Of a stretch of DNA of 64,000 nucleotides, positions 3,010 through 8,190 are shown in pieces. A program made the translations under genes and the position numbers. The stretch comes from SAR202 cluster bacterium (lineage in GTDB: Bacteria; Chloroflexota; Dehalococcoidia; Lucifugimonadales; GCA-2719675). A model generated the notes under the pieces. The model had not been told where the DNA came from. It did no database searches and was given only the letters and a program-made list of their open reading frames with translations. The stretch is taken from contig VFGW01000008.1 in the NCBI GenBank assembly GCA_009392295.1, positions 1-64,000 on the forward strand. The letters are read 5' to 3'. Numbering within the stretch: position 1 is the first letter of the stretch; each line of letters opens with the position of its first letter.

Positions 3010-4203
3010 TTGAAATCTAAAATGACATTGTCTATATTGCGAAAAGAGCTTCCAATTACTGAAAATTCACATTATTTTTTAACTGGAAGCCATGGTCCTG
3101 CGCCAATTTCTGTACTAAATGAATTCCGCAATCAAATGGAATTTGAAGCAGAATTTGGTCTACAGGGAGGATTATATAAAAAAGAAATCATTGCTCGAGA
3201 ACATGATTCTCGAACTGCTTTAGCAACCTTTTTAGGGGTTACTCCTGCAGAAATCTCTATCACAGGAAACACGTCAGAGGCTATGCAGAAAATCATTCGT
3301 TCTTTTAGTTGGGAAAAAAATTCTGAATTAGTTGTGTCTTCTTTGGAACATGTAAGTACATTTTCAATTTGCAGAGAACTGTCAGATAAATATGGAGTGA
3401 CAATCAAAACAGTGGAAGCTGATACCGATGAATCAATATTTTTGGAATCTTTTCAAGATGCTTTGTCAGAGTCCACCAAGCTAGTGGTCGTTAGTCAAAT
3501 TGCTTCTCCAGACGGAAGATTATTGCCGGTAGAAAGAGTGGTTAATATTGCCAAAGAAAAAGGCATTCCCGTTGCCGTTGATGCAGCTCAGTCTATAGGT
3601 CAATTTCCTGTGGATATAAAAGATATAAAATGTGATTTTTTAGTTGGTTCAGGTCATAAATGGCTATTGGGGCCCATGGGAATTGGATTTTTGTATGTAA
3701 ATAACGAATATGGTTTTTCAAATTTTAGGCCAGAATTTATTCCTGACGTTAAATTGTGGCACCAAAAAGAAGATCCTTTACCACCTCTAGATTTAAAGCA
3801 AAGGGCTGAAGTAGGAACGTATAGTCATGCAAAAATCATTGCATTGGGGAAAGCTTTAAACAATATTAATCAAATTGGGTTTTCTCAAATTACTAGTCAT
3901 GTCCAATCGCTGTCGAGTTTATTGTCTAACGCTGTATCCAAAATGCAAAACACACGAATGATCACTCCAATAAACAGTAGTTACCCGTCAGGGCTAATTT
4001 CCCTGAAGGTAGAAGGAAGATCCGCAAAGGATATTCAAAATGCAGTTGCAGAAATGGAAAGAGAAAAGATTTTACTAAAGTTTCAATGGTTGACTGCTCC
4101 GTATGATATCGATAAATTTGCAATACGTATTTCTTTAGCTATGTTTAATACTAATAAAGAGGTGAATCATTTAAATGACGCTCTAAAAACGTATTTAGGA
4201 TAA
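3010..4203 (+). CDS. class V aminotransferase (cysteine desulfurase / isopenicillin-N-epimerase-like)
   Basis: A fold-type I PLP enzyme of about 397 residues, normal for the family. The PLP lysine is visible as SGHKW (Lys217 counted from TTG 3010), preceded by the cofactor aspartate in VAVDAAQS. The glycine-rich, Thr-containing phosphate-binding segment ITGNTSEAM and a conserved His (SLEHVS) are in the usual order. Start is TTG 3010 behind AAGGCGGG, or ATG 3022. A clear catalytic cysteine loop like that of IscS/SufS is not evident, so a C-S lyase, epimerase or other class V activity is as likely as desulfurase. It is followed 9 nt later by a tiny cysteine-rich gene that may be co-translated. 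Family call firm, substrate unknown. Confidence 0.8.
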   Translation: MKSKMTLSILRKELPITENSHYFLTGSHGPAPISVLNEFRNQMEFEAEFGLQGGLYKKEIIAREHDSRTALATFLGVTPAEISITGNTSEAMQKIIRSFSWEKNSELVVSSLEHVSTFSICRELSDKYGVTIKTVEADTDESIFLESFQDALSESTKLVVVSQIASPDGRLLPVERVVNIAKEKGIPVAVDAAQSIGQFPVDIKDIKCDFLVGSGHKWLLGPMGIGFLYVNNEYGFSNFRPEFIPDVKLWHQKEDPLPPLDLKQRAEVGTYSHAKIIALGKALNNINQIGFSQITSHVQSLSSLLSNAVSKMQNTRMITPINSSYPSGLISLKVEGRSAKDIQNAVAEMEREKILLKFQWLTAPYDIDKFAIRISLAMFNTNKEVNHLNDALKTYLG

Positions 4204-4212
4204 AATCTTATA

Positions 4213-4332
4213 ATGAAACATATTAATGTTTATGAATTTAAATGTGATTTATGTGGTTCTGCAATGACAGGTGTCCATTGCAAGCTAAAATGTTTGGTTT
4301 GTGGATTTATTCGTGATTGTTCTGATCCGTAA
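4213..4332 (+). CDS. 39-residue six-cysteine zinc-ribbon-like microprotein
   Basis: A complete short frame, ATG 4213 to TAA 4330-4332, begins 9 nt after the aminotransferase stop. It encodes FKCDLCG at residues 9-15, then HCK, CLVCG and RDCSDP, giving Cys11, Cys14, Cys23, Cys27, Cys30 and Cys36 plus His22. Two CxxC knuckles and extra Cys/His are what a small zinc ribbon or Fe-S binding protein shows, and this pattern would be very unlikely in a chance frame of this size. No strong Shine-Dalgarno is seen, so translation may be coupled to the gene before it. I do not recognise a named family. Position suggests a partner of the aminotransferase or of the lipoprotein/transporter pair downstream, but that is inference. 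Confidence 0.6.
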   Translation: MKHINVYEFKCDLCGSAMTGVHCKLKCLVCGFIRDCSDP

Positions 4333-4365: not shown

Positions 4366-5100
4366 ATGTTTCATCAACAACAGTTTAATCAATTTTGTAT
4401 ATTGATCTTGGTGACCTTCTTTTTGATTGGGTGTTCAACTTTTATTAAAAATGACATTTCTAAAGATGATGTTTCTGTTAATAAAACACAAATTACACCC
4501 ATGGAAGTTCTTGAAAGTTCTTTTGAAGTAATGTCAAATCTTGACACTTTAAGATTTAGAATTGTTCATGAATCTGGACACACAGAACTTTTCCCAAGTA
4601 TATATATCGATAGAATGGACGTTTCTATCGTTTTTCCTGATGAGTACCACGTTAAATTTTATGGTAAGGGAAATTCAAACCAAATTACAAAAGGAGAGAT
4701 TATAGTTTCTGAAGGTAAAACTTTTATAACTAATCCTTTTTCAGGAAAACTGGAAGAGTTATCGGGAGGATCTTCTGCGTTAAAGTTTTTTGAACCTCAA
4801 GCTGGAATCCAGTCTATTTTTTCTAGTATTGAAGATGTAACCTTTGTTAATGAAGTTGAAGATTCTTCACAACAAGCTTTATTGTCTGGGGAAATGCCTG
4901 CGAATGCATTGTTAGCAATTTTTGGCAATTTAGTTTTGGATGAATTTGTAGACGTAGAGTTGTTGATTGATTTGAAAACAAAGTATTTAACTGAGGCAAA
5001 AATTATTGGTCCAATAGTTTCATCTGATAGTACAGAAGTAGTAAGAAAAATTGAATTTGTTTCTTTTAACAAAAAATTTCAAATAAAAAAAGTTGATTAA
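4366..5100 (+). CDS. LppX/LprAFG-family lipoprotein (LprG-like)
   Basis: A 244-residue protein with a lipoprotein signal: a hydrophobic N-terminus ending in the lipobox LIGC, with the lipidated cysteine at residue 23. The rest is a beta-rich domain of the size and pattern of the LppX_LprAFG family: a start resembling 'TPMEVLESSFEVMSNLDTL', repeated strands, then a Gly/Ser turn and a closing 'KIEF' strand. In mycobacteria LprG carries acylated glycolipids across the periplasm and is encoded just before the MFS exporter P55. Here the next gene, 38 nt downstream, is also a 14-TM-type MFS exporter, so the pair order matches. Sequence identity to LprG is low by eye, so the family call rests on length, lipobox, pattern and context. 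The cargo is unknown. Confidence 0.65.
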   Translation: MFHQQQFNQFCILILVTFFLIGCSTFIKNDISKDDVSVNKTQITPMEVLESSFEVMSNLDTLRFRIVHESGHTELFPSIYIDRMDVSIVFPDEYHVKFYGKGNSNQITKGEIIVSEGKTFITNPFSGKLEELSGGSSALKFFEPQAGIQSIFSSIEDVTFVNEVEDSSQQALLSGEMPANALLAIFGNLVLDEFVDVELLIDLKTKYLTEAKIIGPIVSSDSTEVVRKIEFVSFNKKFQIKKVD

Positions 5101-5138
5101 AGCCCCAAAGTTTTATTTAAGGTTTTTAGTAAAAAAAT

Positions 5139-6656
5139 ATGAACAACAAGCACAAATTTAGTAATCTGTATTTAGGCCTAATTCCTTTAGCTTTGGGCGT
5201 TTTTGTTGCCGCAGACGACCAAACTGTAATGGTTACAATTTTACCCGAAATCATGAAAGATACTCATTCTCAAATCACGGAACTTGATAGTGTTTCATGG
5301 ATTATTACAGCATATTTACTTGGTTATTTATGCGTTATCCCGTTTATGGGTAGCGTGTCTGATGTAGTTGGCAGACAAAAATCTTTTGTTATTTCTATGG
5401 GTGTTTTTATTTTAGGATCAGTTCTTGTAGCTATAGCTCCTCTAGATTGGAGTTTTATAGGTTTAAATTCTTTTGATTCAGATTTTAGTAAGATCACAGT
5501 AAATTATTTGGTTTTTGTGAGAGTGATACAAGCTGTTGGTGCAGGCGCTCTTTTACCTATTGGAATTGCTTCTATAGGAGATATGTTTACTTCATCGAAA
5601 AGGGCTTTTCCAATGGGGATATTATCAAGTGCTGCTGAAGCTGGAGGTGTAGTAGGTCCATTTTGGGGAGGTATCTTTGTGAGGTTTTTAAATTGGAGAT
5701 GGACGTTTTGGTCAAATATACCAATTGGTTTTGGTTTAATAGCCATATCATATTTTTTGCCTAAGTATACTCAGAAAATAAAACAAACACCGATAGATAA
5801 AGTTGGTTCTGGTGTTTTGGCTTTATTTCTTATAACAACAACTCTGGTTTTTTCTCAATTAGGAATTAGCACATCCATTTTTTTGTTTTGCGTGTTAGTG
5901 TCGTGTATTTTGGCAGCAATATTATTTTGGCTAGCTAGAAACGATTCAAATTTTTTAATACCTATAGATTTAATAAAAACAAGAGGGTTTATTTGGTTAA
6001 ATCTAACACATTTTTTTGTAGGTGTTGCATTGATTATAGTAATGATTACAGTTCCTTTAATGGCCACAACAATCTTGGAAAAAAATTCTTTCGAAGGTGG
6101 ATTAATGTTGCTTAAAATAACTCTTGCAATTCCGTTCGGTGCTTTCCTGGCAGGAGGATTATGCAGAGTAATTCATTACAAATGGGTTGTTTTAGTGGGA
6201 TTGTTTTTTACAGCTATAGGTTTAGCTTTGATGTATTATTGGATTACAGGTTCCATCAATCCAGTGATTCCAATCCAGCTAATTACTACAGGATTTGGGT
6301 TTGGTGTTATTGCAACTCCAGTTTCTGTATCTGCAATTGAGTTAGCTAGTTCTACAAATCGAGGTATTTCTGCTAGTTTAGTCACTTCGTCTCGACTTTT
6401 TGGGATGACTGTTGGGATATCAGCAATTAGTTCATGGGGCAGTTATCGATTTGGAGAATTGTTATCCAATGCAGGGGTAGGATTATCTAGCTTAGGGTCC
6501 ATGTTATCTACTGGCACCGGATCCTCGGAAATTAAAGAGGTAATGGTTCATATTGGCGAACAATTATTTAGCGAATTTTTATTGATTGGAATTGTTGTTT
6601 TGATTGCAGGATTTTTTTCTGGAATATTAATAAATCATAACAAGCAAGAGGTTTAG
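5139..6656 (+). CDS. MFS exporter, DHA2/P55-like (14-TM class)
   Basis: A 505-residue polytopic membrane protein, the length of DHA2 (EmrB/QacA) drug:H+ antiporters. The first helix carries ADDQTVMVTILP, equivalent to the 'LDxTVVNVALP' motif of this subfamily, with two acidic residues in the membrane. Motif A appears as GSVSDVVGRQK in the first cytoplasmic loop, and GAGALLPIG and GGVVGPFWGG match the antiporter motif C region. It follows the LprG-like lipoprotein gene by 38 nt and ends 1 bp from the convergent ligase gene. Together with the lipoprotein it probably exports a lipid, glycolipid or toxic compound across the envelope. The specific substrate cannot be read from the sequence. Confidence 0.8.
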   Translation: MNNKHKFSNLYLGLIPLALGVFVAADDQTVMVTILPEIMKDTHSQITELDSVSWIITAYLLGYLCVIPFMGSVSDVVGRQKSFVISMGVFILGSVLVAIAPLDWSFIGLNSFDSDFSKITVNYLVFVRVIQAVGAGALLPIGIASIGDMFTSSKRAFPMGILSSAAEAGGVVGPFWGGIFVRFLNWRWTFWSNIPIGFGLIAISYFLPKYTQKIKQTPIDKVGSGVLALFLITTTLVFSQLGISTSIFLFCVLVSCILAAILFWLARNDSNFLIPIDLIKTRGFIWLNLTHFFVGVALIIVMITVPLMATTILEKNSFEGGLMLLKITLAIPFGAFLAGGLCRVIHYKWVVLVGLFFTAIGLALMYYWITGSINPVIPIQLITTGFGFGVIATPVSVSAIELASSTNRGISASLVTSSRLFGMTVGISAISSWGSYRFGELLSNAGVGLSSLGSMLSTGTGSSEIKEVMVHIGEQLFSEFLLIGIVVLIAGFFSGILINHNKQEV

Positions 6657-6657
6657 A

Positions 6658-8190
6658 TCAATTAAATTTTTTAGAAAACATTTCTTTAATTTTAGGTTTT
6701 ATTATTTTCCCCATAGCATTTCGAGGTAAAGATTCTACGATTAAAATTTTTTGGGGCACTTTATAGTTTATAAGCTTTGTTTTTGCCCAATTGCGCAATT
6801 TGGTTCTATTAAGGGTGCTTTCTTTCTCCAAAACTAGTGCCGCGGAAACTGCTTCTCCCCATTTATTATCTTTTATACCAACTACTGCACATTCTTTTAT
6901 TTCTGGGTGTGTACGTAATACGTATTGAATTTCATTTGCTGAAACTTTTTCTCCTCCTGTCTTGATGATGTCTTGAGACGCACGGCCCAAAATTTTATAA
7001 ATTCCATTTTCGATTGAGGATATATCTCCAGTTCTAAACCAACCATCTTTTGAAAATGAACGAGAGGTTTCTTCAGGATTGTTCCAATATTCTAAAAAAA
7101 CATTTTTCCCTTTAATTTGCAACTCGCCTTCATTTCCAGGGGGGACTTCAACATCAAGGCTAACGGGATTTTCCTTTGAGTCAAAATCAATTGAACAAAT
7201 TCGTACATGCACACCGGGCAAAGGGATTCCGACGAATCCAGGGATTCTTGGTCCTATTAATGGGTTCGATAACGCCATGCCAATTTCTGTCATCCCATAT
7301 CTTTCGAGTAATGTGTGGTTTGTAATCAATTTCCATTTTTTCAATGTAATTGGCAACAAAGCGTCTGACCCCGAGACCATAAGTCTTAAATTCGAGATGT
7401 GATTGGTAATTATTTTTTGATTTTTTGAAGGTAAGTCTTCCCAAAAAGAAATTAATTTTTCATACATTGTAGGAACGGCCATGAACAATGTGGTTTTATT
7501 GTTTGACAATTTATTCCAAATCTTTGCAGGGTCAAAATCTGGTAAGAATTCACAGGTAGCACCACTCCATAAAGAACATAGCATTGCATTAACTATGCCA
7601 TGGACATGATGAAGTGGGAGAACATTTAAGATGTGGTCAGAGCTTGTCCATTGCCAAGATTTTACTAAAGTAGTAATTTGAGCTTTGATGTTTAAGTGGG
7701 TTGTTACAACACCTTTTGGCTTATTCGTAGTCCCGCTAGTATAAATTATCATCGCTTTGCGAGACTCGTCAATTTGAGGGCGTTTTTTATTTAAGGTACA
7801 AGTGTCGATTTGATTTGTATTTATGAACTGGATATCATTTTGATTTTTTATTTTGTTCAAAATTTTAGAAAATTCGGGGTCAAATATAATATTTTTAGAG
7901 AAAGTGTCATCTACGATGTGATTGATTTCTTCAACTGGATGAGATAGTGCTATTGGAACTGCGATTCCTCCTGACATCCAAATCCCCCACTGTGTTGCAA
8001 TATATTTGTGCCCTGGAGAGACCATGAACAGAATGCATTCTTCGTTCAAATCTGACTTATTTGACAGAAGTTTTTCAGATATAGAAGTAGCTAAATCTAA
8101 TATTTGAGAATATGTATATTCTCCACTTGGATCAATTACTGCAATTTGATCAGCGTAACGAGAAGCACGAGATATAATTTCTATAGACAT
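6658..8190 (-). CDS. AMP-forming acyl-CoA ligase, malonyl-CoA synthetase (MatB/ACSF3)-like
   Basis: An ANL-superfamily adenylating enzyme of 510 residues. The P-loop IIYTSGTTNKPKG, the LLERYGMTEIGMALSNP motif, the WFRTGD aspartate and the hinge GRASQDIIKTGGEKVSANE are all present. The C-terminal catalytic lysine appears in RNAMGKI. The 'ERYGMTEIGMALSNPL...PGFVGIPLPGV' stretch is closest, from memory, to malonyl-CoA synthetases such as MatB and ACSF3, which make malonyl-CoA from malonate for fatty acid synthesis. Substrate choice cannot be confirmed by eye, and another short-chain acid is possible. The gene starts 11 nt after rpoD ends and is probably read through from that operon. It converges with the MFS exporter gene, leaving a single base between stops. 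Confidence 0.75.
   Translation of the reverse strand: MSIEIISRASRYADQIAVIDPSGEYTYSQILDLATSISEKLLSNKSDLNEECILFMVSPGHKYIATQWGIWMSGGIAVPIALSHPVEEINHIVDDTFSKNIIFDPEFSKILNKIKNQNDIQFINTNQIDTCTLNKKRPQIDESRKAMIIYTSGTTNKPKGVVTTHLNIKAQITTLVKSWQWTSSDHILNVLPLHHVHGIVNAMLCSLWSGATCEFLPDFDPAKIWNKLSNNKTTLFMAVPTMYEKLISFWEDLPSKNQKIITNHISNLRLMVSGSDALLPITLKKWKLITNHTLLERYGMTEIGMALSNPLIGPRIPGFVGIPLPGVHVRICSIDFDSKENPVSLDVEVPPGNEGELQIKGKNVFLEYWNNPEETSRSFSKDGWFRTGDISSIENGIYKILGRASQDIIKTGGEKVSANEIQYVLRTHPEIKECAVVGIKDNKWGEAVSAALVLEKESTLNRTKLRNWAKTKLINYKVPQKILIVESLPRNAMGKIIKPKIKEMFSKKFN

Follow-up and report, generated by a model that had tools for sequence, protein, structure and literature searches.

What does a gene pair resembling the lipoprotein LprG and the exporter P55 do in a bacterium outside the mycobacteria, and is it such a pair at all? 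This question is raised by two adjacent genes in the first 64,000 nucleotides of contig VFGW01000008.1 (assembly GCA_009392295.1) of a SAR202 cluster bacterium (Chloroflexota; Dehalococcoidia), a stretch referred to below as the window. One gene encodes a lipoprotein and the other, which follows on the same strand after a gap of 38 bp, a transporter of the major facilitator superfamily (MFS). Our analyses favor, with a probability of roughly three in four, an LprG-P55-like lipid export pair, with export itself being a prediction. The two proteins share ancestry with LprG and P55, along with their fold, key residues and gene pairing, and the direction of transport, its proton coupling and the transfer of lipid to the lipoprotein are predicted by extension from mycobacterial work.

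Related proteins were collected in four sets: A1, 29 lipoproteins adjoining P55-like transporters in the class to which the window's organism belongs (the window's protein included); A2, 30 transporters of this class; A3, 73 lipoproteins, i.e., that of the window and 72 from the named loci described below, selected by a model derived from the first set; and A4, a 36-row transporter set. The features discussed are listed here, with TM denoting a transmembrane helix.

4366..5100, plus strand: LprG-like lipoprotein, broadly of the LppX_LprAFG family, with 244 amino acids, an open reading frame (ORF) with a signal peptide and the lipobox FLIG-C23.
4432..4434, plus strand: codon of lipobox Cys23, the lipidation site expected from the sequence; Cys in at least 90% of rows in both A1 and A3.
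5139..6656, plus strand: P55/Rv1410-like DHA2 MFS transporter, 505 amino acids, 14 TM helices, identified by PDB, Foldseek and VIA-align matches to 8pnl.
5217..5219, plus strand: codon of Asp27 (Asp22 of Rv1410, TM1), the expected proton-coupling carboxylate judging from the alignment to 8pnl.
5520-5522, plus strand: codon of Arg128, the partner of Asp27, invariant in A2 and A4.
5637..5639, plus strand: codon of Glu167 (Glu147 of Rv1410, TM5), one side of the ion lock, from the alignment, A2 and A4.
6393..6395, plus strand: codon of Arg419 (Arg417 of Rv1410, TM11), the other side of this lock, from the alignment, A2 and A4.
6351..6626, plus strand: codons of the extracytoplasmic extension in the AlphaFold model, made up of TM11 (405-444), a loop helix (449-458) and TM12 (463-496).

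The transporter matched MFS_1 in Pfam (126 bits), and the closest sequence in PDB was MHAS2168 (8pnl), the Mycobacterium hassiacum homologue of Rv1410/P55 (7.5e-46), followed by EfpA (5e-18). An AlphaFold2 model (predicted local distance difference test, pLDDT, 89.8) contained 14 helices of at least 13 residues. Its top fold match was again 8pnl (Foldseek 1.3e-20; VIA-align Z 45.7 versus 39.8 for NorC), with 26-28% identity in the fold alignments. Asp27, Arg128, Gln131, Glu167 and Arg419 are the same residues in 8pnl and are invariant in both A2 (30 rows) and A4 (36 rows), the window's protein included. According to a report on MHAS2168 (PMC10576003), the Glu147-Arg417 ion lock occurs in 17 mycobacterial homologues and is absent from 46 other MFS transporters, Asp22-Arg108 is a second residue pair of the Rv1410-type transporter, and the TM11-TM12 extensions were proposed to guide lipid into LprG. 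In our model, TM11 and TM12 are long as well and would reach past the membrane. On the other hand, the beta-hairpin between TM9 and TM10 that characterizes the mycobacterial structure has no strand in the model (the loop has 10 residues, compared with 20 in 8pnl and a family median of 10), and because of this absence the strict claim of a P55 orthologue is not made. A separate peculiarity of the window's protein is its loop between TM3 and TM4 (window positions 5433-5492), which has 20 residues versus a family median of 5.

For the lipoprotein, the relatives taken together were informative. When the A1 profile was searched against PDB, LprG (3mh9) came first with 8e-19, followed by LprF and LppX, and the A3 profile also retrieved LprG first (4.5e-38); with both profiles, LprG, LprF and LppX were the only PDB entries below an E-value of 0.1. 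Foldseek placed LprG chains on top for the AlphaFold2 model of the window's protein (mean pLDDT 87.4), among them 3mha, which contains phosphatidylinositol mannoside (PIM; 2.8e-10), and the triacylglyceride complex 4zra (1.8e-9). In VIA-align, LprG 3mh9 (Z 19.1, root-mean-square deviation 3.6 over 191 residues) and LprF (Z 19.0) scored above LppX (14.8) and the LolA-type proteins LolA, LolB and RseB (at most 11.4). Searched alone, the window's lipoprotein had no match in NCBIfam and gave nothing useful in PDB (best E 0.69, an alginate epimerase), and no position safely equivalent to Val91 of LprG was found in it.

The two genes also occur together elsewhere. In 197 genomes of the class, the lipoprotein profile matched 81 places in 67 genomes, and 44 of these places (41 genomes) were directly upstream of a P55-like MFS match on the same strand, all of them among the best 46 lipoprotein matches; the comparison covered the first 70 of the listed MFS places. 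One of the two exceptions among the best 46 (G005:C3:349-960) ends 349 bases from the start of its contig, and the other (G157:C24) is without explanation. None of the weaker 35 lipoprotein places adjoins any of the 70 MFS places, and these may represent other lipoproteins. An MFS match by itself says little, being present in 164 of the 197 genomes. Among the 30 best MFS loci, an upstream ORF was seen by script in 25, four more had an MFS ORF that was called too long and ran over the lipoprotein ORF, and the thirtieth (L005) had only 202 bases of upstream sequence; loci L002-L030, as the best matches to the MFS protein in the window, are biased to its family.

A further sample, the named loci, consisted of the best 80 from a scan of GTDB species genomes, so selected that the absence of other phyla proves nothing, and it overlaps with the unnamed loci since L047/L012 and L048/L010 are apparently the same contigs. 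By label, these loci belong to Chloroflexota or Actinomycetota, save L049, L057 and L065, which are labelled "bacterium" only. Many of the best relatives are labelled Dehalococcoidia or Chloroflexi, and some of the pair-bearing actinobacteria do not produce mycolates. A same-strand lipoprotein was found in 72 of the 80 loci, in 71 of them no more than 430 bp upstream of the called MFS start or overlapping it, and both lock residues were present in 76 (L085, one of the other four, ends before Arg419). The pairing is more than chance.

As controls, we used 20 lower-scoring DHA2 places of the class and 12 further places, mostly of intermediate score. Nineteen of the former (L112-L130) have Gly, Ala or Ser at the position of Glu167 and no lipoprotein alongside. 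Eleven of the latter were paired, and the remaining one (L142) was generic like L112-L130. The generic group (n = 20) was thus defined by outcome, comprising 19 of the 20 low-scoring and 1 of the 12 intermediate places, with the other 12 paired. Because all 20 generic proteins share the Arg of the lock and are without its Glu, it is the Glu, not Arg419, that marks the P55-like family. The equivalents of Asp27 and Arg128 were both present in 19 of the 20, and this pair is therefore also non-specific. A tree of 140 transporters separated 120 rows, MHAS2168 among them, from the 20 generic proteins (Shimodaira-Hasegawa-like approximate likelihood ratio test 100), although it was a quick tree with long branches and no bootstrap; EfpA, QacA and EmrB were not in it, L001, L047, L065 and L085 were left out, and MHAS2168 was counted as paired from the literature. 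Cross-tabulating the Glu with the lipoprotein (103, 9, 8, 20) gave p 2e-11 in Fisher's test, a value that ignores kinship and is descriptive only. The 9 in this table are Glu-bearing transporters without an adjacent lipoprotein, and include three rows at contig edges, two Ktedonobacterial fusions and four that are unexplained.

Several observations weigh against an LprG-P55-like pair. On the side of the transporter, the TM11-TM12 stretch is even longer in generic DHA2 proteins and hence is not specific to P55, and Arg419, present in all generic proteins, is not specific either. The lock is not universal among paired transporters: it reads Asp-Gln in five (L111, L135, L138, L139 and L140) and Asn-Trp in one (L137), these six forming one clade in the tree, and L111 had been picked as a control. 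Two paired Acidimicrobiales transporters (L071:3920-6100 and L078:3932-6115) have Thr-Arg at the lock, with the Glu displaced by one residue. Conversely, L056, L060, L061 and L074 have the Glu and at least 1.5 kb of upstream sequence with no adjacent lipoprotein (in L056, a lipoprotein lies 1.6 kb upstream of the transporter). Identity between the window's lipoprotein and LprG is only ~10% in the structural alignment, and the synthase of a known substrate was not found in the host genome (see below). Finally, the lipoprotein scored 18.7 bits (E 0.0017) against PF07161 (LppX_LprAFG), where the curated cut-off is 24. As a set, its relatives do match this model: at E<=0.01, it recognized 26 of the 29 paired lipoproteins of the class and 68 of the 73 in A3, the window's protein included in both. 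For this reason we describe the window's lipoprotein as a homologue of the LppX_LprAFG family that falls below the Pfam cut-off as a single protein, and not as a Pfam-certified member. The PF07161 model had no match in the window's genome, and the same search was positive in no control genome, so that this absence is uninformative.

An initial annotation, made from the sequence of the window, had proposed an LppX/LprAFG-type lipoprotein gene directly before a 14-TM-type MFS exporter and an older, more general role of such pairs outside mycobacteria. The gene order (ORFs 4366-5100 and 5139-6656) agrees with it. Neither of the two outcomes that it had named as contrary was seen: the predicted fold is LprG-like (Z 19.1), and the pair is conserved, with 44 of the best 46 matches and 71 of the best 80 loci. 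Membership in the family stood for the relatives and fell short for the single protein. The idea of an older, more general pair gains support from the fold, the P55-type transporter, the gene order and the occurrence in Chloroflexota and Actinomycetota.

If the pair exports lipid, which lipid would it be? The host genome has 1.45 Mb and is 90.6% complete, with the window on its contig 8. It yielded no match to the triacylglyceride synthase WS/DGAT, where at ~90% completeness a single absence may be a gap. In the class, WS/DGAT was found in 16 of 197 genomes and in 1 of the 41 genomes with the pair (Fisher p 0.20), which speaks of rarity rather than proven exclusion; the search was positive in 0 of 14 control genomes, yet gave strong matches within the class. 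The DAGAT family had no match, in a search that was positive in no control genome. Inositol-phosphate synthase (INO1) is required for PIM and lipoarabinomannan (LAM). It had no match in the window's genome, again at ~90% completeness, and was detected in 5 of 41 genomes with the pair and 17 of the 156 others, i.e., without association with the pair. With no WS/DGAT or INO1 match in the window's genome, and few in pair genomes, it is doubtful that either triacylglyceride or PIM/LAM can be carried over as cargo to the window's pair. Omp85 had no match in the window's genome, the sole genome tested, with a search that was positive in 7 of 14 controls, and Lgt is encoded there; both fit a monoderm cell. 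The most probable cargo is a lipid, either neutral or multiply acylated, other than WS/DGAT-made triacylglyceride and PIM/LAM, and its destination is most likely the outer leaflet or the surface of a monoderm cell. The triacylated glycolipids implied as substrate in the initial annotation are accordingly not supported by these searches. Its suggestion that the pair possibly supplies envelope glycolipids made by the genes at 54-62 kb is not supported either: these genes encode DUF2298, PMT_2, SDR, LPG_synthase_TM and FAD amine-oxidase domains, lie ~48 kb away, and nothing was found that ties them to it.

An alternative that differs from the preferred explanation in cargo only, and whose odds overlap with it, is triacylglyceride export of just the mycobacterial kind. 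The unchanged ion-lock and proton-coupling residues and the presence of the triacylglyceride-binding LprG structure 4zra among the best fold matches would be consistent with this cargo; given the WS/DGAT results above, we consider it unlikely. Less likely still is an ordinary DHA2 multidrug pump that stands beside the lipoprotein gene by chance, the lipoprotein having another role. The best NCBIfam model for the transporter was indeed the EmrB-type DHA2 model TIGR00711, with 123 bits and below the cut-off of 230, and P55 itself was originally described as a drug pump, as stated in PMC10576003. A chance neighbor, however, would hardly recur beside 44 of the best 46 lipoprotein matches and in 71 of the best 80 named loci, while 19 of 20 generic controls were without both the lipoprotein neighbor and the lock Glu (the other, L111, being a paired variant), and the nearest structure is a lipid exporter and not EfpA, QacA or EmrB. 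The least probable reading, in which the lipoprotein is no lipid acceptor and acts as a LolA/RseB-superfamily lipoprotein carrier or stress sensor that the transporter feeds or reports on, could draw on the shared superfamily fold of LolA, LolB and RseB (Z at most 11.4) and on the sigma and anti-sigma genes ahead of the pair in some relatives, but it is countered by the Z of 19 for LprG and LprF, by profile matches below E 0.1 that comprise LprG, LprF and LppX only, and by the lack of an Omp85 match in the genome, so that no outer-membrane target was found.

A lipid export pair could work as follows. A very hydrophobic lipid would enter the central cavity of the transporter laterally, coming from the core of the cytoplasmic membrane. 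Proton-driven switching, together with formation of the Glu167-Arg419 lock, would raise this lipid to the outer side, where the long helices TM11 and TM12 would guide it into a hydrophobic pocket of the lipoprotein, which, anchored in the membrane, may shield the lipid outside it.

Certain relatives depart from the two-gene arrangement. In two Ktedonobacteria (L053:3713-6202 and L066:3800-6241), the pump is followed by a C-terminal extra helix and a conserved domain of ~175 residues, and no LprG-like ORF was found within ~3.7 kb upstream; that pumps without an LprG neighbor bring a domain of their own counts in favor of the export pair. Among 301 genomes of the phylum, 11 contained the fused domain, and these share one family code. 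Among 12 fetched loci (the L143-L154 series), the domain and the MFS part were in a single open frame in eight, including L143, which is identical to the L053 query domain; L147 is cut by a contig start, L152 and L154 represent one contig with the domain and the MFS part in two frames, and L153 gave no match in the script. Two other Ktedonobacterial loci (L067 and L070) have the normal pair. At the sequence level, the fused domain had nothing better than E 0.02 in Pfam and nothing at E 10 in a PDB profile search. A TULIP-type lipid-binding domain (DUF2140/LmeA-like) was considered as a candidate identity but gained no support from these searches and stays a guess. The two Acidimicrobiales transporters with Thr-Arg at the lock are also extended, with ~727 residues, an additional helix and a long C-terminal tail that abounds in repeated VPIxxDVxV-like segments.

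Taken more widely, these data suggest that the LprG-P55-type device predates the waxy mycobacterial coat and may move other lipids. We tentatively propose, at somewhat less than even odds, that it is an ancient machine for lipid export in Chloroflexota and Actinomycetota and not a mycomembrane device, that it handles another lipid in Dehalococcoidia, that its supposedly essential Glu-Arg lock gave way to Asp-Gln or Asn-Trp within a single clade, and that the separate lipoprotein was apparently replaced by the fused domain, which would be extracytoplasmic and new, in one Ktedonobacterial family. LprG-Rv1410 is a virulence-linked pair that has so far been explained by the mycomembrane it seals, and the occurrence of such a pair, with the same lock, in a genome where neither an outer-membrane marker nor the usual triacylglyceride synthase was detected points to a more general basic function. 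No report of the spread of the pair in Chloroflexota was found in the open-access literature, with most subscription journals outside our coverage. Two questions can now be tested: what the pair carries in genomes with no match to the synthases of the known substrates, and whether the pair requires its ion lock, given natural lineages in which it is changed. For structural work, a single-chain version is available in the Ktedonobacterial fusions.

The surroundings of the pair were also surveyed. Upstream in the window is a class-V aminotransferase gene (3010-4203), and downstream, on the opposite strand, an AMP-forming ligase gene (6658-8190). Neither neighbor is recurrent: the aminotransferase V family occurred once in the 26 genes immediately upstream of the pair (from the window plus 25 selected loci) and the ligase once among 36 downstream genes, in each case in the window itself, with AMP-binding seen once among the upstream genes of the other loci. 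No lipid-synthesis family recurred beside the pair in either survey. The commonest upstream family was the anti-sigma factor RskA_C (7 of 26), and the commonest downstream families were 2-oxoacid dehydrogenase and Thy1 (5 each of the 36 genes, among the 25 of 43 families listed). A gene for an extracytoplasmic function (ECF) sigma factor precedes the pair in three of four tested Chloroflexota loci (L035, L042 and L046; not L054), and an ECF sigma and/or RskA_C anti-sigma gene is ahead of it in L035, L042, L046 and L038, an arrangement that hints at envelope-stress control. Between the aminotransferase and lipoprotein genes, a 39-residue ORF (4213-4332) contains six Cys, two of the pairs being CxxC. 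Further upstream (279-2958), two proteins have, by eye, prepilin-like N-terminal hydrophobic stretches and no Pfam match at E 0.001.

How does the pair compare with known systems? EfpA, QacA and EmrB have the 14-TM DHA2 architecture in common with the window's transporter, with lower similarity (5e-18 and weaker), and the ion-lock Glu position is occupied by Ala in EfpA in the alignment, versus Glu167 in the window's protein. These three pumps are not known to have an LprG-like partner. As for LppX of M. tuberculosis, its partner MmpL7 is an RND (resistance-nodulation-division)-type pump and not an MFS protein. The window's lipoprotein belongs to the same fold family as LppX, with a weaker match (Z 14.8) than to LprG. 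Two reports add that LppX works with MmpL7 for phthiocerol dimycocerosates (PMC4709180) and that QacA, too, has an element between TM11 and TM12 (PMC10576003).

The closest system is the LprG-Rv1410 (P55) operon of Mycobacterium, represented by MHAS2167/2168 of M. hassiacum. The window's pair differs from it in that the transporter is without the TM9-TM10 beta-hairpin and has a TM3-TM4 loop of 20 instead of 5 residues, and in that its host, whose kin are Chloroflexota, had no matches to Omp85, WS/DGAT or INO1. The two systems share the order of lipoprotein followed by MFS transporter, the LprG fold, the 14-TM DHA2 fold with extended TM11 and TM12, and both residue pairs, Asp22-Arg108 and Glu147-Arg417.

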